Source: a virus. From it: a DNA stretch of 22,030 nt. The stretch spans positions 1 to 22,030 of the IMG/VR virus record IMGVR_UViG_3300020205_000254; one strand, given 5' to 3'. The notes under the pieces were generated by a model, which saw only the letters and a program-made list of their open reading frames with translations, made no database searches and was not told the origin of the DNA. This document shows, in pieces, positions 4,132 to 21,266 of this stretch; within the stretch, counting starts at the first letter, position 1; every line of letters begins with the position of its first letter. The position numbers were made by a program, and so were the translations under genes.

Positions 4132-4834
4132 AATATTATTAACATTTGGTGACAGTTGGCCGGCCGGAGCAAAGTTGGATGATAAGTCTTTGGCCTTTCC
4201 TAAGTTACTTGCTAATAAATTAGAAATAGAGTTGATGGATCTAAGTGAACCGGCAACTAGCATAGATCATGCAGTAATGGCTTTTTTGAATTTTTTAGAA
4301 AATACATATAAAGTTGACGCAACTTATACCGCATTATTTTGTTTAACAGATGTTAGTAGAGCAATGGCCTGGCGTAATGGTGATAATGAAATTCCTCCTA
4401 GGGATCAACTATGGGCACCAAATTGCTTTACACAAGAATTACAAATTAATAATATAGATCCTATGTCACAAACGTATTTTAAAAACATACATTCCACTAG
4501 ATTAGAAAATTATACCTATCATAAGAATATTGTACTTTTAAAATTATTATGTGAGAAATATAGCATTCGAGACTTTTACGTTCATAATTTTTATGATCCT
4601 AATTTTGAATTTAAAATAGTTAATAAAGATAGAATATATCCACATACACTAACGCAACTACTTGATACTAAAATGTACAAAGAATATATTCCAACTCTAA
4701 TTGCGCCAATAGAACAGGATAAATTAAAACGACCCATATGGGAAGAGCCTTTTGTGTTTATGAATCCAGATGGGCATCCAACTGAATTAGGGCACCAACG
4801 TATTGCAGAGGAATTGGCACAATGGATAAATTAA
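4121..4834 (+). CDS. SGNH/GDSL hydrolase-like protein
   Basis: 237 aa from GTG 4121, overlapping the previous stop by 11 bp. Block I is LLTFGDSWPAGAKL with predicted nucleophile Ser12; the C-terminal catalytic block is NPDGHPTELGHQRIAEEL with Asp217 and His219. Unlike the SGNH-like protein at 2239, both ends of the active site are visible, so activity is plausible. GDSW-type SGNH proteins with a D-x-HP ending recur in marine phages; I know of no established substrate. The gene is very AT-rich (hand counts of 10 and 14 G+C per 60 bases in two rows). It overlaps the gp62-like gene by 13 bp. A glycan or lipid deacylase is the likeliest chemistry. Confidence 0.75.
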   Translation: MKSKILLTFGDSWPAGAKLDDKSLAFPKLLANKLEIELMDLSEPATSIDHAVMAFLNFLENTYKVDATYTALFCLTDVSRAMAWRNGDNEIPPRDQLWAPNCFTQELQINNIDPMSQTYFKNIHSTRLENYTYHKNIVLLKLLCEKYSIRDFYVHNFYDPNFEFKIVNKDRIYPHTLTQLLDTKMYKEYIPTLIAPIEQDKLKRPIWEEPFVFMNPDGHPTELGHQRIAEELAQWIN

Positions 4835-5289
4835 ATATTGCAAATGAAATGGCTCGATTTGATCTTAAGGATCGAGACTTTTATGACGATCTTTCTGAAG
4901 AAGAACAAAAGAAGTTTAGTCCTTATTTGATGATACGGTGGGGAGCCGCAGTGGAAGGTCCGGCAGAATTGCAAGCCTATTACTTAATGAGCTGTAACGA
5001 AAACTTAAATAAAAATTTCTTTGACATTAACACTACACAGCATAAAAAGTTGCAATGGTTATTGGCAACAACAGTAAGTCCAGGTATGGGCAAACAGTAT
5101 CACAAATGGTTAGCGGCAAAAAAGAAGGATACTGCTAATAACAAATCAGAAAAAATACTACGTGAACTGTATCCTAATGCCGCTCACGATGAAATTCAAT
5201 TGATGGCAGATTTAAACGACAAAGCAGAACTTCGAGAATTGGCAAAGAAACATGGATGGGATGATCGTAGAATCAAAGAGTACCTATAA
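4822..5289 (+). CDS. 62: Clamp-loader small subunit, gp62-like
   Basis: 155 aa. In T4, gp62 is the single non-ATPase subunit that joins four gp44 subunits to load the gp45 sliding clamp. The sequence fits the short marine-phage version: an acidic N-terminus, SPYLMIRWGAAV (34-45), then HKKLQWLLATTVSPGMGKQYHKW, where the L-x-W-L-L ... K-x-x-x-K-W layout matches the core helix and basic motif of gp62 relatives. The C-terminal third is helical (AELRELAKKHGWDDRRIKEYL). The gene for the gp44 partner is not in this window. The identification rests on pattern and length, not on alignment. It overlaps the next gene by 38 bp. Confidence 0.65.
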   Translation: MDKLNIANEMARFDLKDRDFYDDLSEEEQKKFSPYLMIRWGAAVEGPAELQAYYLMSCNENLNKNFFDINTTQHKKLQWLLATTVSPGMGKQYHKWLAAKKKDTANNKSEKILRELYPNAAHDEIQLMADLNDKAELRELAKKHGWDDRRIKEYL

Positions 5290-5962
5290 ATGTCGCTATT
5301 GTGAGAAATCCTTTAGCAAGGAGTCGACCTTGGTGGTGCATCTCTGCGAACCCAAGCGTCGGTGGCAACAGGAAAAAGAAGTAGGAGTACAATTAGGACT
5401 TAAAGCATATTTAAGATTTTATGAAATAACACAGGGATCAGCAAAGTTAAAAAACTATGAAGACTTTGTTAAGAGTTCTTATTACAATGCCTTTATTAAG
5501 TTTGGTAGATACAGTCAAGATATACGCTGTATTAACTATACTAATTATCTAGAGTGGCTGTTACGAAACAACAAGAAAATAGATAATTGGTGTAGCGACA
5601 GACTTTATGAAGAATGGTTACCAGGATACTTACAAAAAGAAGCAGTACAAGATGCATTAGAACGAGCACTAAAGGAAATGCAAGATTATGCAGAAGCTAA
5701 TACAGATCTTAAAAACGGTTTTACAGACTATTTTAGGTTTGGTCAACCTAATAGGATTCTCTTTCACATTACTAGCGGGAGGATTAGTCCTTGGGTTGTT
5801 TATAATTCCGAGAGTGGTGTGGCTTTTTTGGATGGACTGTCGGAAGAACAAATTCAAATAGTGTTGCCCTGGATTGATCCTGAGCATTGGCAACGTAAAT
5901 TTACGGACTATATGGCCGATACTGAATGGGTCAAGGATATATTAAAAAAGGCTGGACTATGA
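5252..5962 (+). CDS. C2HC zinc-finger protein of T4-like phage type
   Basis: 236 aa from ATG 5252; ATG 5261 is an alternative. A C2HC finger lies at residues 14-32: Cys14-x2-Cys17, aromatic Phe21, then His30-x-Cys32, within YKCRYCEKSFSKESTLVVH, followed by basic EPKRRWQQ. A helical, aromatic-rich middle (LKAYLRFYEITQG, YTNYLEWLL) and the helix EAVQDALERALKEMQDYAEANTDL come next. The end (FLDGLSEEQIQIVLPWIDPEHWQRKFTDYM) is also helical. A finger plus basic patch suggests nucleic-acid binding. Its 38-bp overlap with the gp62-like gene implies coupled translation. The role is unknown; a replication or transcription accessory factor fits the context. Confidence 0.75.
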   Translation: MDGMIVESKSTYKCRYCEKSFSKESTLVVHLCEPKRRWQQEKEVGVQLGLKAYLRFYEITQGSAKLKNYEDFVKSSYYNAFIKFGRYSQDIRCINYTNYLEWLLRNNKKIDNWCSDRLYEEWLPGYLQKEAVQDALERALKEMQDYAEANTDLKNGFTDYFRFGQPNRILFHITSGRISPWVVYNSESGVAFLDGLSEEQIQIVLPWIDPEHWQRKFTDYMADTEWVKDILKKAGL

Positions 5963-6522
5963 AATTTAAAGGCGACATTGACATAGACTTCCCCAATAGA
6001 GATCAAGCATTGACCCTATTACAACATCATCCCGCAGGTATTGTACGTGATGGTAGATTAATTAAACACAATACTGGAGTTTATGTAACTGATATTCCAA
6101 CAGATCCATTAACTGGTACATCCAGCATTGACTATCAGCAGGCCGAAGACCTTGGATATATGAAGTTAGATTTTTTAAATGTATCGTTATATACGCAGAT
6201 AAAGAGTGAACAACATCTGACTGAATTACTTGCAAAAGAACCTGAATGGGATCGGCTATACGATCCTGACTTTTGTAGTCAGCTTATACATATTGGAAAT
6301 CATTATGACTTACTAATTAAATGTCCAGAAGCAGTTAACAGTATACCACGAATGGCCATGTTCCTGGCTCTAATACGTCCTGGTAAACGACATTTGGTTG
6401 GAAAACCTTGGTCAGAAATTGCTCGTACTGTATGGGAATCTACTGACGAAGGATATATATTTAAGAAAAGCCACGCAGTGGCCTATGCACATCTTGTAGT
6501 AGTTAATATGAATTTATTGTAG
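5959..6522 (+). CDS. Miniature DnaE-like (PolIII alpha palm/fingers) protein
   Basis: 187 aa from ATG 5959, forming ATGA with the upstream stop. Segments match bacterial replicative polymerase DnaE in order: GDIDIDFPNRD (5-15) resembles the palm PDFDVDF block, placing Asp8 and Asp10 as the two catalytic aspartates; HNTGVYVTD (37-45) resembles HxCGVVI; LGYMKLDFLNVSLYTQI (65-81) resembles the KFDFLGL block, with Asp71 as the third aspartate; FLALIRPGK (125-133) resembles ALFRPGP; and GYIFKKSHAVAYAH (155-168) resembles GYGFNKSHSAAYA of the fingers. DnaE itself exceeds 1,000 aa: the PHP, thumb, clamp-binding and OB parts are absent, as is most of the sequence between blocks. Whether it polymerises is unknown. 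A structural relic or replisome regulator is the alternative. Confidence 0.7.
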   Translation: MKFKGDIDIDFPNRDQALTLLQHHPAGIVRDGRLIKHNTGVYVTDIPTDPLTGTSSIDYQQAEDLGYMKLDFLNVSLYTQIKSEQHLTELLAKEPEWDRLYDPDFCSQLIHIGNHYDLLIKCPEAVNSIPRMAMFLALIRPGKRHLVGKPWSEIARTVWESTDEGYIFKKSHAVAYAHLVVVNMNLL

Positions 6523-7340: not shown

Positions 7341-8294
7341 ATGAAAAAATTACTAGCCATATTCCTATTAGTGCCAATTCTAGCATTTGCTTGGGAACCT
7401 CGACGACCAGTTACAGTTGTATTTCCAAATGGTCCCGGTGCTGGAAATGAAATCAGCTTTAGATTTGTAGCCAGCATAGTAGAAAAGAAAACTGGTGCCA
7501 CGTTTGTAAGCGAATACAAACCTGGTGCAGATGGCAATATCGCCATGAATCATTTTGCCACTGTGCCTGCTGATGGGCATACTATTGCTGTACCGGCTTG
7601 CCAGAGCAACTGGGTGACTGGTGACATCTGGTACAGTAACATGATTCGATATGATGCTCAGGACTTTGAGCCCGTGGCCAATATTGCTCGTAGTCCACTA
7701 GCATTTTGGGCTCATCCCAGCAGTCCTATAAACACTCCACAAGAACTAGCAGAACTAATACACTCTCAAAAACGACCGGTCAATATTGCCATTGGTGGTG
7801 GCGGGCATCGACTGGCAATACAATATCTTGTTGATGCCTTACGGGTACCAGCCAATACGGTGTCAACTCCCATGTACAAAGGTCCAGCACAGGCCCTGCT
7901 AGATGTCCTAGGCGGTCATGTGGAATTTGGTGTGACTCCTGTCACAGTTGGATGGCCGCATGTGCAAGCTGGAAAACTAAAATTAATCGGTATCGCCAAT
8001 GAACAACCGTTAAAAGGACTAGAACGTGCACCATTGATGCGTACAGTTGCTCCAGGCTTGTCCATACATGGCTGTTGGAATATCGTATTACCCAAAGGCA
8101 CACCTGCTGATATACAGGCCTGGTATCGTGATCATTTTGTGCCGGCTATTAGAAGTGCCGAAGCCGGAGAAAAGTTTGCAGAAAACATGATGTTTATCAC
8201 TCCTGCAGAACACACACCTGCGGGTGTTAGGGCCAGCATGGCTCGGTTACGAGAGGTGTGGCAACCGGTTGCTAGAAAGATAAAACCTGAATGA
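7341..8294 (+). CDS. Bug/TctC-family periplasmic substrate-binding protein
   Basis: 317 aa with a clear Sec signal peptide (MKKLLAIFLLVPILAFA, cut near residue 17). It has the family's N-terminal pattern: PVTVVFPNGPGAGNEISFR matches the [IV]-x-[FY]-x-x-G-x-G-x-x-x-x-x-x-R motif, then VSEYKPGADGNIA and VPADGHTIAV. Its length equals the usual ~320 aa. Bug proteins bind carboxylates for TctAB-type transporters and are greatly expanded in Burkholderiales. No transporter membrane subunits are encoded here, so it would have to serve the host's. It is flanked by phage genes on the opposite strand. A sampled row has 47% GC (28 of 60), higher than nearby phage genes, which suggests recent host origin. 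The ligand cannot be told from sequence. Confidence 0.9.
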   Translation: MKKLLAIFLLVPILAFAWEPRRPVTVVFPNGPGAGNEISFRFVASIVEKKTGATFVSEYKPGADGNIAMNHFATVPADGHTIAVPACQSNWVTGDIWYSNMIRYDAQDFEPVANIARSPLAFWAHPSSPINTPQELAELIHSQKRPVNIAIGGGGHRLAIQYLVDALRVPANTVSTPMYKGPAQALLDVLGGHVEFGVTPVTVGWPHVQAGKLKLIGIANEQPLKGLERAPLMRTVAPGLSIHGCWNIVLPKGTPADIQAWYRDHFVPAIRSAEAGEKFAENMMFITPAEHTPAGVRASMARLREVWQPVARKIKPE

Positions 8295-11106: not shown

Positions 11107-11113
11107 ACTATGA
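11074..11113 (+). repeat. 40-bp promoter repeat, copy 1
   Basis: This 40-bp segment matches 12910-12949 at 33 of 40 positions by hand alignment without gaps. The last 16 bases, including the shared TATAATTAAACTATGA, are identical. Copy 1 spans the end of the primase gene and the start codon of the radical SAM gene. Confidence 0.85.
11075..11103 (+). promoter_or_regulatory. Sigma70-type promoter, leaderless, for the radical SAM-SDR pair
   Basis: TTGAGT (11075-11080), 17-nt spacer, consensus TATAAT (11098-11103). Six bases later comes the ATG at 11110, exactly where transcription should begin. Confidence 0.75.
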
Positions 11114-12249
11114 ATCCTAAAAAGAAGTTTTTTTTATTTAAACAATCCAAACATTTTTGTGCCGTACCATGGAACCATTTAAAAATTCACACATCGGGAG
11201 AAGTAACCACATGTGTGAATGGGCTATACCAGTTAGGAAATGTACATGATAATTCATTCAATGAAATTTTATCTAATCCAATATTACATACAATTAAAAA
11301 TAATGTAGTACAGGATTTGCCAGACATTAATTGTAAAAAATGTCAAACATTAGAAAACACAGAAGATTATTCATACAAATTTTTAAGAGATTTGTATAAT
11401 CCCATGTTTATAAAATCTACAGCGGACTATGATAGTAATACAGATTTTGTTCTAAACGGGGTAGATTTACATTGGGGTAGTACTTGCAATTTAAAATGTA
11501 TTACCTGTTGGGGAGAACAAAGCAGCTCAATTGCACAAGAATTAGGTGAACCAATTAGAACAGTATCTGCTGAGGCAGCAAATAGCACAATAGATTTTAT
11601 AGTCAAGAATCAAATCACACTTAAAGAAATATATATGAGTGGCGGAGAGCCTACATTAATAAAACATAATCTTAATTTATTAAAACAACTACGCAAAGAT
11701 TTAGACTTTACCATTCGAATAAACACCAATATGACTTTTATGGATAATAATCCAGTCATTAATGAATTAAAGAAATTTCCAAAAGTGTTATTTACGATCA
11801 GCGCCGACGCATTGACTAATAGATTTAACTATATTAGACGTGGCGCTGATTGGAAAAATTTTATATATAACTTAGAACAACTAAAAAAATTACATTTTGA
11901 CTGGAGAGTTAATTCAGTGTTTTTTGTAGGCACAGCATTGCATTTAGCTAATACTCAAGAATTTTTTATGAATAATTTTGAAATTAACGATTTCACAATT
12001 AATCAAGTTGGTATGGGGCACGATAGTATTAGATGCCGCAATCTTCCAATCAATGTAAAAGAGTTGGTAACGGATAAATTACAAACACATAGAGAAAAAT
12101 ATAAACAAAATATAAATTTATATGGACAATTAACAAATTGTATGAACGAAGTTACGCAACCCACTGAAGAATCGTATATAGCATTCTTTGATGACATTGA
12201 TAAGCGTGCCGGCACAAACTGGCGGCACATATTTACAGAACTCATATGA
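11110..12249 (+). CDS. Radical SAM enzyme with N-terminal twitch/SPASM-like cysteines
   Basis: 379 aa. The radical SAM cluster site is STCNLKCITC: Cys126-x3-Cys130-x2-Cys133, followed by the SAM-binding GGEP (178-181). Before it, Cys17 (FCAVPWNHL), Cys35 (EVTTCVNG) and Cys75/Cys78 (INCKKC) form a SPASM/twitch-like auxiliary cysteine set at the N-terminus, as in the phage and marine-bacterial twitch subfamily. Such enzymes use a 4Fe-4S cluster and S-adenosylmethionine to start radical chemistry. The substrate is unknown; a peptide, sugar or nucleotide is possible. The start is an apparent leaderless ATG. Sampled rows are 22% and 32% GC. The SDR gene follows with an ATGA overlap and may act on the product. 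Confidence 0.85.
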   Translation: MNPKKKFFLFKQSKHFCAVPWNHLKIHTSGEVTTCVNGLYQLGNVHDNSFNEILSNPILHTIKNNVVQDLPDINCKKCQTLENTEDYSYKFLRDLYNPMFIKSTADYDSNTDFVLNGVDLHWGSTCNLKCITCWGEQSSSIAQELGEPIRTVSAEAANSTIDFIVKNQITLKEIYMSGGEPTLIKHNLNLLKQLRKDLDFTIRINTNMTFMDNNPVINELKKFPKVLFTISADALTNRFNYIRRGADWKNFIYNLEQLKKLHFDWRVNSVFFVGTALHLANTQEFFMNNFEINDFTINQVGMGHDSIRCRNLPINVKELVTDKLQTHREKYKQNINLYGQLTNCMNEVTQPTEESYIAFFDDIDKRAGTNWRHIFTELI

Positions 12250-12949: not shown

Positions 12950-14385
12950 CAAAAGAATATTCAACCGATTTACAAAGATTGTTTTTAGAAATGATGTTAA
13001 CCGACGCACAAAGTTATGTGCGAGTACAAAACATTTATAATCCTGAAAACTTTGATCGCAGTCTTAGAGCTGTGGCAGAGTTTGTGAAAACACACAGTGA
13101 AGATCATAAGACCCTTCCTACATTTGAACAGATCAAAGCCACAACTGGAGTAGATCTTAAAGCAGTTCCAGACCTTGTTGATGGCCACTATAATTGGTTT
13201 ATGCAGGAATTTGAAGGTTTTAGTCGACGTATGGAATTAGAACGTGCTATTTTAAAAGCGGCAGACTTATTAGAAAAAGGTGACTACGATCCTGTAGAAA
13301 AATTGATTAAAGATGCAGTACAGATTAGTTTAACTAAAGACATGGGCACTGATTACTTTGCTGATCCGAGAGCACGTATTGACAAATACTTTAACAGTGG
13401 TGGGCAAGTAAGCACAGGTTGGCCCACTATGGATAAGATACTGTATGGTGGTATGAGCCGCGGCGAACTCAATATCTTTGCTGGCGGATCGGGCTCGGGT
13501 AAGAGTCTTGTTATGATGAACATTGCTCTTAGTTGGTTACAAGCAGGACTCAGTGGGGTGTATGTTACATTGGAACTCAGTGAAGAATTATGTAGTTTGC
13601 GTACAGATGCTATGCTTACAGGTATGGGAACCAAGGACATTCGCAAAGATGTTGACACTACCGAACTTAAAGTTCGTATGGTATCTAAAAAAGCTGGACA
13701 GTATAGAGTAAAAGCATTTCCAGCACAGAGCACAATTAATGATATTAGAGCATACTTAAAAGAAGTGCAAATACAAACAGGGATCAAAGTTGATTTTGTT
13801 ATGGTTGATTACTTAGACTTATTAATGCCAGTAAGTGTTAAAGTTAATCCCAATGACCAGTTTATTAAAGACAAATACGTAGCAGAAGAACTGCGTAACA
13901 TAGCACAAGAATTAAATGTGTTATTGGTTACAGCAAGTCAGTTAAATCGTAGTGCTGTAGAAGAAATTGAGTTTGATCATAGTCATATTGCTGGTGGTAT
14001 TAGTAAGATTAATACTGCGGATAACGTATTTGGTATTTTTACAAGTCGTGCTATGAAAGAACGTGGGCGGTATCAAATACAATGTATGAAATCTCGTAGT
14101 AGTACTGGAGTTGGTATGAAGATTGATTTAGAATACAATATAGAAACTATGCGTATTACTGATCCAGGGCCCGAAGGGCAAGAAGGGTATTTACAAGCAG
14201 GGGGTCCGCCCAAAGTTACTAGTATTATGAATCAAATTAAAGCCAGTACAACAGTAAATCAATTTGATGTAAAAGCCAAAGATGGGTTCAATCTAGAAAG
14301 AGATGCTGGGCCACCTCCAGGGAGTAGTCTTGAAAGCAATAAGTTAAAACAGATGCTTGCTGGATTAAAAAGTAAAACCGATTAA
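12946..14385 (+). CDS. 41: Replicative DNA helicase, gp41/DnaB-type
   Basis: 479 aa, close to T4 gp41 (475). The N-terminal ~150 residues are helical and correspond to the primase-contacting domain. The RecA-like domain begins at STGWPTMDKILYGGMSRGELNIF. Walker A is GSGSGKS (181-187); the glutamate of ATP hydrolysis is probably in VTLELSEE (207-214); Walker B is FVMVDYLDLL (284-293, Asp288); the sensor motif is TASQLNR (329-335). The Pro/Gly-rich C-terminal tail (GPPPGSSLESNK) may bind partners. It unwinds DNA 5'-3' as a hexamer ahead of the fork and works with the primase at 10072. Transcription starts from its own promoter, with an apparently leaderless ATG. Its end overlaps the minus-strand gene by 21 bp. 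Confidence 0.95.
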   Translation: MTKEYSTDLQRLFLEMMLTDAQSYVRVQNIYNPENFDRSLRAVAEFVKTHSEDHKTLPTFEQIKATTGVDLKAVPDLVDGHYNWFMQEFEGFSRRMELERAILKAADLLEKGDYDPVEKLIKDAVQISLTKDMGTDYFADPRARIDKYFNSGGQVSTGWPTMDKILYGGMSRGELNIFAGGSGSGKSLVMMNIALSWLQAGLSGVYVTLELSEELCSLRTDAMLTGMGTKDIRKDVDTTELKVRMVSKKAGQYRVKAFPAQSTINDIRAYLKEVQIQTGIKVDFVMVDYLDLLMPVSVKVNPNDQFIKDKYVAEELRNIAQELNVLLVTASQLNRSAVEEIEFDHSHIAGGISKINTADNVFGIFTSRAMKERGRYQIQCMKSRSSTGVGMKIDLEYNIETMRITDPGPEGQEGYLQAGGPPKVTSIMNQIKASTTVNQFDVKAKDGFNLERDAGPPPGSSLESNKLKQMLAGLKSKTD

Positions 14386-15438
14386 CTCACAAAATTCTGG
14401 CAGGTAGTTAACCATACAAATACCTTTTACTTCATCTTGTTTTTTGATTATTTTTAAAAATCTAGTAAAATCGTAATTGTCTTTGTCAGTGTGAGTGCCT
14501 ATAAAAAATTCTAAATCCTGTGATCGGCCACGTTTGCGAAATATTTCTTCTTTAACTGATTTGGGTAAAGCCCCGGGCCTAAAGTATGTGGGGTTAATAA
14601 CGGGATTATAATGATAATTTAACTTTTGTTCTTTAAACCAGCTAATAGTCTCATGATGATAAAGCACATTCATATTACTAGTAGTACTACTAACACTAAC
14701 ATTATCTGTAATAGTTCTAAAAAATTCTAAGTTTTCTAATAGAGTATCCCATGACAATGGATATCTTAGGTATTCAAATATTGGGCCCACTCCGTCAATA
14801 CTGACATTAAAATTTATATTTTTAAATTTTTTAAGTAGCTCTTTGTTATTATCACTTATATTAACTGATCCATTGGTTGTGACTGCAATAAAACATTTAG
14901 TGTTATTATTTTTAATTAATTGTTCAAGAATATAAAAATTTAACTTTTCATATAAAGGTTCGCCACCAACAAAATTTAACATGACTAACTCTTTAAAATT
15001 AAGATTTTCGTGAATGTCAGTCTTAGTCATGGATTTTATGGGTAGTGCAGTTAGATTCATTTTCTTTTCTAATGGTCCCCATGCACTTGATGGTCCAGAA
15101 TTACAAGTAACACAAGTAGAATTACAAGTGTTACTTGTAACATTTTTTACCATTATGGTTTTATATTTTCCTTGTATAACATCCTCTTCGATATATCTAA
15201 GGTCTTTATCCCAGTAAAAATCTAAAGCAGAGTTTTTAAGTTTACGATCACTAATTAGCCCAGCATCTTCTAGGTTCCAACACGCTGAGCAAAACGGTGA
15301 TCTTTCCTGATTCAGGATGCTACTTTTTATGGATTCTATGTTATAATTCTTAGGTAGTAAACAACAATGAGTTCCATATCGACGGTCAGTAGAATATTCG
15401 TACCCAAAAAACGGTAGAACACAAAAATAATTATTCAT
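14365..15438 (-). CDS. Second radical SAM enzyme with twitch/SPASM-like cysteines
   Basis: 357 aa on the minus strand. Core: NTCNSTCVTC gives Cys105-x3-Cys109-x2-Cys112, then NFVGGEPLYE with GGEP at 158-161. N-terminal cysteines at 6, 25/26, 50 and 53 (FCVLPFFG, THCCLLP, FCSACW) form the auxiliary set. It shares architecture, but little sequence, with the radical SAM protein at 11110, so it is not a recent duplicate. The inner part has the radical SAM strands VTTNGS and NVSIDGVG. Two sampled rows are 23% and 30% GC. The gene lies alone and opposite to its neighbours; upstream TATAAT and TATAAG sequences exist without good -35 boxes. The substrate is unknown; peptide or sugar modification is possible. 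Confidence 0.85.
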   Translation of the reverse strand: MNNYFCVLPFFGYEYSTDRRYGTHCCLLPKNYNIESIKSSILNQERSPFCSACWNLEDAGLISDRKLKNSALDFYWDKDLRYIEEDVIQGKYKTIMVKNVTSNTCNSTCVTCNSGPSSAWGPLEKKMNLTALPIKSMTKTDIHENLNFKELVMLNFVGGEPLYEKLNFYILEQLIKNNNTKCFIAVTTNGSVNISDNNKELLKKFKNINFNVSIDGVGPIFEYLRYPLSWDTLLENLEFFRTITDNVSVSSTTSNMNVLYHHETISWFKEQKLNYHYNPVINPTYFRPGALPKSVKEEIFRKRGRSQDLEFFIGTHTDKDNYDFTRFLKIIKKQDEVKGICMVNYLPEFCELIGFTF

Positions 15439-15514: not shown

Positions 15515-15766
15515 TTGCAAAAGAGAGCCCGCAGTATACTTGATGAATTAGATAGTATGCTAGTACACAAGGATCGTGAGAATCTTGTGGAAAGCCGCGC
15601 TAGTAATGTTATTGCTGGCGCAATTAATCTAATCAAATATATTCGTGAAAACTATGATCCTGTGCAGTCCGATGAGCTCGAACGTCGATTAATTAACAGT
15701 ATACGCACTCAAGAGCCAGAGAAATTTACTCGCGGAGTTAGGAGAATGCGTAGTGAAAATAAATGA
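15515..15766 (+). CDS. Small helical phage protein, unknown function
   Basis: 83 aa from TTG 15515, which has a good GGAG ribosome site at 15504-15507 with 7-nt spacing. Nearly all helical and strongly charged: RARSILDELDSMLV, ESRASNVIAGAINLIKYIRENY, DELERRLINSIRTQ, then a basic tail (RGVRRMRSENK). The type recurs in marine T4-like phages without known function. It is the first gene of a four-gene operon and overlaps the next by 14 bp. A scaffold, core or packaging-related role fits the late box, but nothing in the sequence proves it. Confidence 0.7.
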   Translation: MQKRARSILDELDSMLVHKDRENLVESRASNVIAGAINLIKYIRENYDPVQSDELERRLINSIRTQEPEKFTRGVRRMRSENK

Positions 15767-16562
15767 TATAGTTAACGAAGGTGTTGCATCGGGGTTTCTT
15801 CGTGGAGTTGGAGCAGCAGATACTGCAAACGCTGCAGACCGTTATAGTGATGCCCAGAGAAGAAACAACGCCCAAGGGCCAGACACTATGTCAACTGCTG
15901 ATACTCGTGCCAGTATAGCAAAAAACATGCCAAGCGATTTTATGCAACAGTTTAATCTCATTGACCCAGATTTAGGTATTGTAAAATATGGTAATACACA
16001 GTTCCAACGTGACGACAATGGCAAGTGGATTGATTATAGGACTGGTAAGCCTGCTCCTGGACGATTTATCCCTGCGTTAGATTCTACTAGCCCTCCAACA
16101 GTCCCGGGCGCCAAGACACCAAAATCAAACAATGGCTCAACTGTACCAGACTACAGCATTAAACGTAAAACAGTTCCTACATCTCCGGCTGTGCTTAAAC
16201 CAAACCCAGCTAGATCAGCACCAACACCATCTCCAGTGGCTGCAAATATCCCATCCGCGGATACAGCAGCAACTACTACAGATACTATAGAAACATTGCC
16301 GGACGGTAGTGTTAAATTGACTGACAAAAAAGGGCAAGCCTGGACTAAATCCACAACAGCACCTGGTTGGAAAGGTCCCGGGGGAGTATATATTCAAGGT
16401 GGTGCAGATTATGATGCACTTGAAAAAGTTGCCGCAGAATTGCAAACACAACAACCAAAAAAAACATCTAGTCTAATAGATCCAAAAACTGGACAACCAT
16501 TTGTATACGAAAGTATTGATCTTGCACAAGTTCTTTGGAATAAAATGAAAAGTAAACAATAA
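15753..16562 (+). CDS. Pro/Thr/Ser-rich late protein with T4-style capsid-targeting-like N-terminus
   Basis: 269 aa from GTG 15753 (GGAG at 15741-15744 as ribosome site). The N-terminus MKINDIVNEGVAS resembles the T4 internal-protein targeting peptide MKTYQEFIAEA: basic residue at 2, acidic-aromatic/aliphatic-aliphatic, then x-E followed by Gly or Ala. After a short folded-looking part (residues ~60-105) comes a low-complexity linker of Pro, Thr, Ser and Ala (~110-180: TSPPTVPGAKT, PNPARSAPTPSPVAA), then a basic-aromatic domain (GQAWTKSTTAPGWKGPGGVYI) and a helical tail. No enzyme motif is seen. Late box, operon and N-terminus suggest a head-internal or virion protein. Confidence 0.65.
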   Translation: MKINDIVNEGVASGFLRGVGAADTANAADRYSDAQRRNNAQGPDTMSTADTRASIAKNMPSDFMQQFNLIDPDLGIVKYGNTQFQRDDNGKWIDYRTGKPAPGRFIPALDSTSPPTVPGAKTPKSNNGSTVPDYSIKRKTVPTSPAVLKPNPARSAPTPSPVAANIPSADTAATTTDTIETLPDGSVKLTDKKGQAWTKSTTAPGWKGPGGVYIQGGADYDALEKVAAELQTQQPKKTSSLIDPKTGQPFVYESIDLAQVLWNKMKSKQ

Positions 16563-17353
16563 TGTATTATCTATTTGAAGGCGGCAACGCAATACCTACA
16601 AGTAGTCCCGTAAACCAGGAAGATGTTCCGCAGGTTATTGCTATTGCTAGACGTGAAATGCCACAACCATTATTAAAAAATTTACAAGCAGACATTGGTA
16701 GTGCAGGATATAAACAAGTACCCAGTGGCGATATTGACCTAATGGTTGAAGCACAAGATACAGTAGATTTATTTCAAACACAAGATAATCCCAAGGATCC
16801 AGTATTAGCCGCCAAGAAAGCAATGCAGACATGGTTTGCAGCCAAGGGTATTGAAGCTAATGTCAATGGACGTAATGTTAGTATCGGAATAAAATATAAA
16901 GCCAAAAACGGCAAGCCAGGATATGCTCAAGTTGACCTAATGGTTATACACGATGCCGCTATAGTTGCACCTTGGCATCAACACGGTCCACGTGGTATGT
17001 ATAAAGATGCTGGCTTTAAGGGACAACAGAACTTTCTTCTAATGGCCAGTATTGCTAAACATCTTAACTTAAAGTTTGATCCATTTGGTGCAAAATTAAT
17101 TAATCGTGACACTAATGCAGTTGTTGGCCGTACACGTAAAGAAGTTGCTAAGATCTTACTTGGCCCAAAAGCAAAAGAAGATTCGTTAAACAGCGTTGGT
17201 ACTATGCTAGCCGCCTTAGAAAACGATCCCGATCGAGAAGGTAAGTTAGCACAGGCTCGACAAGATCAAGCTAAAGGATTGTTGACACTTCCTGAAGCTG
17301 CACCTACTCCGGGCACAGCCGCCTGGTTTAGAAAAATGGGACACGTTGTATGA
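16562..17353 (+). CDS. Pol-beta-superfamily nucleotidyltransferase-like protein
   Basis: 263 aa, starting at TAATG overlap. The nucleotidyltransferase signature G-S-x(9)-D-x-D is present: Gly46-Ser47, then GDIDLMV with Asp57 and Asp59; the third metal-binding residue is Asp125 in AQVDLMVIH. The later helical region (NFLLMASIAKHLNL, RTRKEVAKILLG) fits the downstream domain. Family members add nucleotides to RNA ends, proteins or small molecules; the acceptor is unknown. The N-terminus MYYLFEGGNA has a L-x-E/G site like T4 prohead protease sites (I/L-x-E, cut before G/A). It overlaps the ligase-like gene by 4 bp, which suggests a joint function. Confidence 0.75.
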   Translation: MYYLFEGGNAIPTSSPVNQEDVPQVIAIARREMPQPLLKNLQADIGSAGYKQVPSGDIDLMVEAQDTVDLFQTQDNPKDPVLAAKKAMQTWFAAKGIEANVNGRNVSIGIKYKAKNGKPGYAQVDLMVIHDAAIVAPWHQHGPRGMYKDAGFKGQQNFLLMASIAKHLNLKFDPFGAKLINRDTNAVVGRTRKEVAKILLGPKAKEDSLNSVGTMLAALENDPDREGKLAQARQDQAKGLLTLPEAAPTPGTAAWFRKMGHVV

Positions 17354-18411
17354 ATTTAGATTTTATACAAACACTAATGGAAGCCGACGAAGGCCCACGT
17401 ATTGTTCATCCCGAAGATACTATATTTGATGGATCTGCTCGAGCTGGGCAATATGTGGAAGCATTGAAAGAAGTGATAAAAAATCCCGGTAGTGTTAGTA
17501 TTAAATGGGATGGCGGAATAGCATTAGTATTTGGTCGTAAGGCATCTGGAGAATTCTTTTGTGCTGACAAATATATGCCTAACAAAGGTGTATTTCCAAC
17601 AAGTCCAGAACAATGGATAGAGTATGATCGTGGTCGTGGTGCTAACCGTAATGACCTATATGCTAAAATTCAAACTGTGTGGGCCGGTTTAGAAGCCGCA
17701 GTAAAAGATCGTGCTACTTATAAAGGTGATTTAATGCACGTGGGTAAATTGCCTTTAGTAAATGGTATGTATGAATTTACTCCCACAACAGTAAAATATC
17801 GTATTCCTCCTAATAGTGCAATTGGACAATTAATTAAAGGCAAAGTTGGTGTGTTAGTTGTACATCAACGCGAAGGCCAGCCTTGGGACGGACAAACAGG
17901 ATTAGCCAATGGTGGCAACGTAGCAATTTTAAATCCTACTGCTGGAATTAAATTTCAAATAAATGATCCTGTACAACTAACTACAGGTGCAACACGAGTA
18001 GTAACACAGTATGGAGCTGTAGTTGATAAATTCTTTGCTGGTATAGACGGTGTTGCTAAAGCTGCAATTAAAAAGTATTTTAATCAGAAAATTACAGGTC
18101 AAACTAAAGAAGATATTGTTGAATGGCTACAACACAATGTTAGTGGCAAACAATTTAAACTACTAGTAGGCGAAAATCAAGGCGGATACTTATATAGGAA
18201 TCAGCAAGGATACGAAGCATTAAAAGCAGTATGGAATGCAATATATCAATTAAAAGTTGGACTAGCATCTCAGCTAGAACAACAGGTAACAGGATTTGAA
18301 CAATGGACTGGTGGACAAAAAGCCGGCGAAGGCTTTGTGGTAAATACTAGTCAAGGACTAATAAAATTAGTAAATCGTGGTGTATTTGGTCAAGCACACT
18401 TTAACAAATAA
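17350..18411 (+). CDS. DNA/RNA ligase-superfamily-like covalent nucleotidyltransferase
   Basis: 353 aa. The motif order of nucleotidyl-lysine enzymes is visible: motif I SIKWDGGIALVFGR with candidate adenylated Lys52 in KWDG (52-55); motif III-like YKGDLMH (124-130); motif IIIa-like VGVLVVHQ (166-173); motif IV EGFVV (327-331); and motif V-like GLIKLVNR (336-343). A long segment of ~150 residues between IIIa and IV is unusual for a classic ligase and may hold a helical insertion. The N-terminus MNLDFIQTLMEADEG contains L-M-E before Ala, a T4 prohead-protease-like site. It overlaps the nucleotidyltransferase gene by 4 bp. Sealing, capping or adenylation of RNA is plausible; the substrate and activity are unproven. 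Confidence 0.65.
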   Translation: MNLDFIQTLMEADEGPRIVHPEDTIFDGSARAGQYVEALKEVIKNPGSVSIKWDGGIALVFGRKASGEFFCADKYMPNKGVFPTSPEQWIEYDRGRGANRNDLYAKIQTVWAGLEAAVKDRATYKGDLMHVGKLPLVNGMYEFTPTTVKYRIPPNSAIGQLIKGKVGVLVVHQREGQPWDGQTGLANGGNVAILNPTAGIKFQINDPVQLTTGATRVVTQYGAVVDKFFAGIDGVAKAAIKKYFNQKITGQTKEDIVEWLQHNVSGKQFKLLVGENQGGYLYRNQQGYEALKAVWNAIYQLKVGLASQLEQQVTGFEQWTGGQKAGEGFVVNTSQGLIKLVNRGVFGQAHFNK

Positions 18412-20530: not shown

Positions 20531-20555
20531 ATGATACAGTTTGGGAATAAAAACT

Positions 20556-21266
20556 ATGAGACTCTCTGAAATGCACACAGCAGTAACACCACAAAAGATT
20601 AATAAAGTCATGGAAAGCCGATTTGGGTTTACTATTGATTATGATAACTTAACTTATGCTAAAGCACAGCGTTTAAGCAAAGCCTTAAACGAAAACATCG
20701 GTGCCATTAAGCGTAGTTTTGGTGCCCACACCGCTGAAAAGAATGCCAAGTACATGGAATTAATGTTAGTTAAAGAAGGCATTGATCGTTGGTTAAACAG
20801 CGAACAAGGATTGTTTGAATCTGAAATGGGTCGTAGCGAAGCAGTACTAGCCGCCAAAGACATTGTTGACAGCGTTCAAGACATGTTAGAAAAAATTAGC
20901 AAAATTCAAAATGAACAAGTACCTGCATTAATTGACACTATTCGTGATCAAATTGGTGGTGAACAAGCAGAGCAGTTTAAAACAACTATCAGCCCATGCT
21001 TAACAGAATTATATACTGCATTAAGTAGCGCACGTGAAACATCTGATACTAGTGTACGTGCATTAGCAGGAGAAGAAGTTGCAAATACAATGGATATGGG
21101 CTTAGGTGGTGATCAATTACCTTCTATGGCTGACACTGGAATGGGCGATGCTGGTCTTGATGCTGGCAGTGATTTTGATAGCGACATGCCTCCAGCAGAT
21201 GACGCCTTTGGTGCAACTGACTCGGCAGTAGGTGGCCAAGAAGAACTAGGACGTGAACGTCGTTAA
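20556..21266 (+). CDS. Putative prohead-core/virion-associated helical protein
   Basis: 236 aa from ATG 20556 (a TTG at 20541 is in frame but lies in the ribosome-site region). The N-terminal 160 residues are highly charged and helical with heptad repeats (YMELMLVKEGIDRWL, AAKDIVDSVQDMLEKISKIQNEQ). The C-terminal ~60 residues are disordered, acidic and rich in Gly, Asp, Ala and Met, with repeats such as DAGLDAGSDFDSDMP, ending EELGRERR. A coiled helical rod plus acidic tail is the kind of composition found in phage scaffold or core proteins, and it is followed by a gene with a capsid-targeting-like N-terminus. The assignment is inference; I cannot match it to gp22 or another named protein. 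Confidence 0.6.
   Translation: MRLSEMHTAVTPQKINKVMESRFGFTIDYDNLTYAKAQRLSKALNENIGAIKRSFGAHTAEKNAKYMELMLVKEGIDRWLNSEQGLFESEMGRSEAVLAAKDIVDSVQDMLEKISKIQNEQVPALIDTIRDQIGGEQAEQFKTTISPCLTELYTALSSARETSDTSVRALAGEEVANTMDMGLGGDQLPSMADTGMGDAGLDAGSDFDSDMPPADDAFGATDSAVGGQEELGRERR

Follow-up and report, generated by a model that had tools for sequence, protein, structure and literature searches.

A linked polymerase X and ligase-fold gene pair with head-protein-type N-termini in a freshwater phage: a candidate packaged repair system

The systems closest to the gene pair described here are found in an animal virus, in jumbo phages and in the head of T4. African swine fever virus (ASFV) encodes a minimal polymerase X, AsfvPolX, which lacks two DNA-binding domains of the cellular enzymes (PMC5330486) and has a partner in the virus's own ligase (PMC5330486, PMC6344480). 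A phage RNA-repair system built on RlaP (PF10127) and Rnl1 or Rnl2 was described by Burroughs and Aravind in 2016 (summarised in PMC7824862). The T4 internal head proteins (Alt, IPI-III) carry an N-terminal capsid-targeting propeptide that is removed by the prohead protease, and are injected with the DNA (PMC9026906). In this work we analyse two overlapping genes, NT and LG, from a freshwater phage. They lie on a 22-kb fragment (22,030 nucleotides, here called the window) that makes up the whole of IMG/VR virus record IMGVR_UViG_3300020205_000254. NT is a relative of polymerase X, reduced like AsfvPolX, and LG is a ligase-fold enzyme of the family DUF6267. On balance, and by a small measure, we believe that the two are packed in the phage head, injected, and fill gaps or add nucleotides before sealing.

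Such a system would work as follows. Both enzymes would be made late, as head proteins, and short N-terminal propeptides would direct them to the prohead, where a T4-type prohead protease would trim them after a hydrophobic-x-Glu site. Packed together with the phage DNA, they would enter the host at infection and could act before new phage proteins exist, filling gaps or adding nucleotides at broken ends that would then be sealed. We infer the packaging, the cleavage, the two activities and their order from the folds, catalytic residues, linkage and fusion, and targeting- and cleavage-like motifs computed here. The features of the pair are listed below; a slash marks the putative protease site.

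16562..17353, + strand: NT, 263 aa, a minimal polymerase-X-type nucleotidyltransferase with palm and thumb (open reading frame (ORF), AlphaFold, Foldseek/VIA, BFVD, hhalign)
17350..18411, + strand: LG, 353 aa, DUF6267 with a polynucleotide-ligase (covalent nucleotidyltransferase) fold (Pfam PF19782, AlphaFold, VIA)
17350..17353, + strand: ATGA start/stop overlap of NT and LG, 4 bp, translational coupling (ORF coordinates)
16562..16579, + strand: NT N-terminus MYYLFE/GG, a capsid-targeting-like propeptide with the putative prohead-protease site LFE/G (motif count; EGGN conserved)
16697..16738, + strand: NT palm motif G46-S47...S55-G56-D57-I-D59 with two catalytic Asp (invariance; aligns with GS...GDxD of polymerase X)
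16934..16936, + strand: third catalytic Asp of NT, D125, in QVD125LM (invariant, 84 sequences)
17350..17382, + strand: LG N-terminus MNLDFIQTLME/A, a capsid-targeting-like propeptide (motif count)
17503..17514, + strand: LG motif I, K52-W-D54-G55, with the putative adenylated lysine (invariance, 70 sequences)
18328..18366, + strand: LG motifs IV (E327-G328-F-V330-V) and V (G-L-I-K339-L) (70 sequences)

The first-pass annotation, made from the letters of the window, had placed both ORFs and their 4-bp overlap at these positions, and the ORF coordinates agree. The catalytic residues it named (D57, D59 and D125 of NT; K52 in KWDG, EGFVV and GLIKL of LG) are present and invariant, or nearly so, in homologues. 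Its motif III of LG (G126-D127-L) is a fair reading of the sequence, although not a textbook match.

The two genes travel together. Viral contigs scanned at high identity yielded 24 loci of LG and 5 of NT, and wider scans with alignments gave more than 500 NT-encoding and about 500 LG-encoding stretches. Conservation of NT and LG at 52-92% identity across tens of viral contigs, along with the DUF6267 match of LG, argues that the pair is not a product of chance. Among 74 contigs that were selected by NT and had enough room around it, the two are fused in 45, overlapping or adjacent in 19 and within 3 kb of each other in 6; LG is missing from the other 4. Selection by LG (59 contigs) gave 22 fusions, 28 adjacent pairs, 5 with NT near and 4 without it. 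The fusion is a single ORF of about 620 residues, and the overlap is 4 or 1 bp in 24 of 24 adjacent pairs. Fusions occur in both NT subgroups (L012-L015 and L016, in the latter at 4182-6029), which probably means more than one origin of the fusion, or else a swap of the polymerase. In the jumbo phages PA5oct, Atu_ph07 and Phosso a KxDG protein is encoded near NT, with the gene order reversed.

Some loci show further variation. The window shares 92% identity with L025/L026 in NT and just 47% in LG, which points to a mosaic pair and recombination between the two genes. Some loci hold a second nucleotidyltransferase-like gene between NT and LG, which we call type C (motifs EGGWDT...TGSSAY...GDIDLQM...VQIDFM; L001 728-1762, L007 1246-2265, L011 3994-5004, L025 2006-3022, L026, L038 and L091). 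Neither Pfam nor PHROG has a match for type C, which shows no link to polymerase X (2%) and a weak one to NT (34%); its N-terminus is also capsid-targeting-like. Where LG is missing, a HAD-type phosphatase-like gene (DMDGVLADFF) lies directly or one gene upstream of NT (L043 5466-5999, L053 4615-5169, L102 5445-5999). Immediately downstream of NT, Atu_ph07 (L036 9773-10561) and Phosso (L037 9824-10501) share a conserved gene that resembles, by eye, a gene downstream of LG (L041 8655-9332). Searches of annotated phage genomes with NT or type C (tblastn) found none; isolates were reached only by the divergent B type.

What kind of enzyme is NT? On its own it matched no family in Pfam, PHROG or NCBIfam. 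Sequence searches of the PDB gave no significant match either, whether the queries were single proteins or profiles. The AlphaFold model of NT (predicted local distance difference test, pLDDT, 88) matches Pol lambda in Foldseek with E 4.7e-6 and probability 1.0, and the best 50 matches are polymerase X throughout. VIA-align gives Z 8.8 to Pol lambda (4.4 Å over 179 residues) and Z 8.7 to AsfvPolX (3.7 Å over 157 residues); Pol beta, Pol mu, TdT and minimal polymerase X are also among the Foldseek/VIA matches. In the viral model library BFVD the named neighbours are DNA polymerase-like and DNA polymerase X proteins. Comparison of the NT profile with one built from bacterial polymerase X genes (hhalign) gave a probability of 93.7% and E 1.9e-7, with palm and thumb aligned in register over 130 columns. 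Each NT subgroup singly reached 87-90%, shuffled or reversed polymerase X at most 0.3%, and LG against polymerase X 0.1%. DNA_pol_B_thumb is the commonest weak Pfam match of the family (16 of 81 members). Because the fold, the profile comparison with its shuffled controls and the thumb matches concur, we conclude that NT is a relative of polymerase X. The protein is too short for the 8-kDa and HhH domains of the cellular enzymes, leaving palm and thumb only. Fold and profile make NT something more specific than the 'Pol-beta-type' nucleotidyltransferase of the first-pass annotation, namely a minimal DNA polymerase X. Characterised members of this family fill gaps and extend ends in DNA, and from model and sequence we predict gap filling or terminal transfer for NT. 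All 84 homologues keep D57, D59 and D125, and G46, G49, G56 and Q123 are equally invariant.

Two other identities for NT were considered. RlaP was rejected, as PF10127 is not among the listed families that the 81 members match and hhalign to one RlaP sequence gave 0.16%. A CCA-adding enzyme was set aside since polymerase X fills the fold lists, although absence from such lists does not itself exclude a family.

LG matches Pfam DUF6267 (PF19782) with E 2.3e-27 and 96.8 bits, the curated cut-off being 27, and also falls in PHROG 455, which has no function given. K52, D54, G55, Y150 and K302 are invariant in 70 homologues, and E327, G328 and K339 are found in every non-gapped row. Judged by this conservation of catalytic residues, neither LG nor NT looks dead. 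The AlphaFold model of LG (pLDDT 94) has matches listed by VIA-align that are nearly all RNA or DNA polynucleotide ligases, with a Naegleria RNA ligase at the top (Z 7.7, 4.1 Å over 185 residues), then REL1 (7.0), a DNA ligase (6.7), T4 Rnl2 (6.5) and a fungal tRNA ligase (6.3). These scores are moderate, and RNA and DNA ligases are tied. A helical insert (residues ~208-310) separates motifs IIIa and IV. The protein ends about 14 residues past K339 of motif V, so it has no OB domain. Together, the consistent structural list and the conserved motifs I, IV and V lead us to assign LG as a ligase-fold enzyme with K52 as the putative site of adenylation. Weak Pfam RNA_ligase matches occur in just 2 of 70 members (best 0.043). 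The ligase-like proteins of PA5oct and Phosso reach 3.4% against LG alone; their hidden Markov model match to LG is circular, both being in the seed alignment, and their assignment as ligase-like is suggested by KxDG/EG/K motifs, position and RNA-ligase similarity.

The substrate is harder to name. Membership of polymerase X speaks for DNA gaps or ends, e.g. those of a damaged incoming genome, and the lack of an OB domain together with the RNA-ligase-like neighbours of LG speaks for RNA. We slightly favour the incoming phage genome over cleaved tRNA as the predicted substrate. The first-pass annotation had suggested a possible RNA-repair or RNA-modifying system, and the form that this would take is a packaged tRNA repair in which a tRNA cleaved by an anticodon nuclease of the host regains its lost nucleotide through NT and is closed by LG, so that translation survives the first minutes of infection. 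We regard this as the strongest of the alternatives, and still as unlikely. It draws on the closest structural neighbours of LG (Z 7.7-6.5 for the Naegleria enzyme, REL1 and T4 Rnl2) and on the jumbo phages, where the ligase-like neighbour of NT in Atu_ph07 matches RNA_ligase weakly, with E 9.8e-4, and does not reach the cut-off, and the ligase-like proteins of the three phages, pooled, reach 44.6% to an Rnl2 profile. The principle of a nucleotidyltransferase with an RNA ligase is, with RlaP, established for such phages (PMC7824862), and the relatives MIJ3 and PA5oct carry tilS, MIJ3 with 12 tRNAs (PMC6892783). However, NT is a polymerase X rather than an RlaP, and the DNA ligase matches of LG lie within about 1 Z of the RNA ligases. 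We recognised no kinase or phosphatase gene for end healing next to the pair in the window, which has no tRNA gene either. Ligase fold, coupling and head-type N-termini survive from the earlier proposal, and RNA as the substrate is not supported in the form proposed.

Evidence for packaging begins with the N-termini, which had already been called head-type and compatible with pre-packaging. The strict motif [LIF]xE[GAS] lies within 20 aa of the start in 85% of NT and in 69% of unfused LG proteins. Its frequency is 4% in internal stretches, and 0% at the N-termini of primase and DnaB, in line with that suggestion. A looser [LIVMF]xE was rejected as a marker of head proteins: DnaB carries it in 80% (LFLEM), and only the form before G, A or S discriminates. 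NT starts directly at its GG motif, with no preceding propeptide, in L036, L037 and L112, which is consistent with cleavage at E/GG. The fused proteins have a hydrophobic-x-Glu site immediately before the LG domain, and in most of them NT closes with a conserved PF[LM]E; a prohead protease might therefore split the fusion into two enzymes. A T4-type prohead protease (Peptidase S77) was found in 9 of 9 complete or very long relatives searched. The NT homologue of PA5oct (EST35_0231) is annotated as a virion protein detected by mass spectrometry (MS), as are several neighbours. By our own count, the Atu_ph07 genes for NT and the ligase-like protein are coding sequences (CDS) 65-66. They lie inside a cluster (CDS 31-76) that contributes 29 MS-confirmed virion proteins, a number for the cluster as a whole. 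The two other expectations of the first reading, a ligase-like fold for the second protein and co-occurrence of the genes, are borne out by the polynucleotide-ligase matches and by the fused or adjacent arrangement in most loci.

Several observations weigh against a packaged polymerase and ligase. Any prohead protease gene of this phage would lie outside the 22-kb fragment. In PA5oct, NT has no propeptide, the ligase-like neighbour EST35_0228 is not annotated as MS-detected, and ribonucleotide reductase is on that MS list too, which makes contamination possible. There are a few NT loci without LG and a few LG loci without NT. As for LG itself, Foldseek alone gave no significant match for the model, the OB domain and motif VI used by DNA ligases are absent, and no link to RNA ligases was obtained by sequence profile, with hhalign to Rnl2 giving only 2.4%.

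A head location would also suit injected effectors that modify the host, with NT and LG nucleotidylating host RNA or protein and so shutting down or redirecting the host. As read by eye, the island in the relatives holds other proteins bearing capsid-targeting sequences (CTS) that are ADP-ribosyltransferase-like, along with a GNAT and a GGCT-like protein, and T4 Alt ADP-ribosylates RNA polymerase. That said, a polymerase fused to a ligase fold speaks for sequential nucleic-acid chemistry, not two separate modifications, and we consider this explanation improbable. That NT and LG are structural or scaffold proteins, descended from enzymes but without activity, fits their place among virion structural genes and the listing of the PA5oct homologue as a structural protein, yet we give it very little credence, as a dead scaffold would not keep (near-)invariant catalytic residues in 84 and 70 diverse homologues. 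The ADP-ribosyltransferase-like proteins of the island are, beside NT and LG in Atu_ph07 (L036 10558-17832), an array of about 10 tandem paralogues with MRWxQLTE N-termini, and a similar single gene in L011 (2684-3997); these are probably injected effectors.

Returning to the polymerase and ligase as packaged repair enzymes, the surrounding genes in the window include the following.

15515..15766, + strand: virion structural family PHROG 11854, 83 aa (PHROG match; syntenic with PA5oct)
15753..16562, + strand: gene upstream of NT, 269 aa, low complexity, capsid-targeting-like N-terminus MKINDIVNE/G (1-bp overlap with NT)
20541..21266, + strand: virion structural family PHROG 14154, 241 aa, a marker of the late/virion gene cluster (PHROG match)

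PHROG 11854 and 14154, matched by the genes that flank the pair, are 'head and packaging' virion families, and comparable low-complexity proteins with a CTS also precede NT in other loci. Further away, an ORF with a signal peptide (7341-8294) looks by eye like a Bug/TctC-type solute-binding protein, which is unusual for a phage and hints at a betaproteobacterial host. Two proteins that are radical-SAM-like by eye, with several cysteine motifs (11110-12249, + strand; 14365-15438, - strand), flank the DnaB helicase gene, one on each strand.

If packaged repair is correct, DUF6267, a family of marine cyanophages and freshwater phages, would gain a function. It would also mean that phages inject repair enzymes, beyond proteins for host takeover or against restriction. 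The occurrence of NT alone in more than 500 viral contig stretches suggests that the pair is abundant. A bolder version is conceivable, though we would not bet on it: many jumbo and T4-like aquatic phages may carry in the head a polyprotein of polymerase X and ligase, which the prohead protease would split at assembly into a polymerase and a ligase without OB domain. These would mend gaps and breaks of the incoming genome on arrival, as a phage equivalent of the base-excision or end-joining repair that other viruses carry, and this would be the first function for DUF6267. The isolates PA5oct and Paride grow on P. aeruginosa PAO1, which opens the question to direct tests, and a small polymerase joined to a ligase that lacks an OB domain is a possible enzyme tool.

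How does the pair compare with known systems? The ligase of ASFV, AsfvLIG, is among the structural matches of LG (Z 5.5). LG belongs to another family and to a phage rather than an animal virus, and AsfvLIG is a full DNA ligase with an OB domain, which LG lacks; to our knowledge the ASFV enzymes are not known as a fused or overlapping pair. Like fused NT-LG, the LigD protein of bacterial non-homologous end joining is a single chain with a polymerase and a ligase domain that process and seal ends, but its polymerase is of the AEP superfamily, not polymerase X, and its ligase has an OB domain. We know of no packaging of LigD in virions. The RlaP system, common in jumbo phages, likewise places a nucleotidyltransferase of the Pol-beta superfamily beside a ligase and was proposed to restore nucleotides before sealing (PMC7824862). 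It differs in that LG is DUF6267 rather than Rnl1 or Rnl2 and NT has no RlaP match, and packaging signals and fusion are absent from its description (PMC7824862). A match to RlaP does occur in Atu_ph07, at another place in the genome.

DUF6267 (PF19782)/PHROG 455 proteins of cyanomyophages share the catalytic residues of LG, but they are flanked by a HIGH-type cytidylyltransferase and a protein of ~400 aa, not by a polymerase X. In the cyanophage loci (L030 4724-7721, L031 and L032) the ~400-aa flanking protein has a possible PD-(D/E)XK motif, and PHROG 455 itself spans a DUF6267-cytidyltransferase fusion. Compared with Alt and IPI-III of T4, the cargo here would be nucleic-acid enzymes, and their packaging is predicted from features such as the N-termini.

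In the open-licence literature we found no text on DUF6267, a study of prokaryotic polymerase X that does not mention phages, and no description of a polymerase X-ligase fusion in phages, although an earlier one elsewhere is possible. The first-pass annotation had put the genes forward as an undescribed system. In that same literature we did not find this family pair, its fusion or its packaging described, and to that extent the suggestion stands. The novelty does not extend to the principle: polymerase-plus-ligase repair is already known, as are RlaP with RNA ligases in jumbo phages and the polymerase X and ligase of ASFV.

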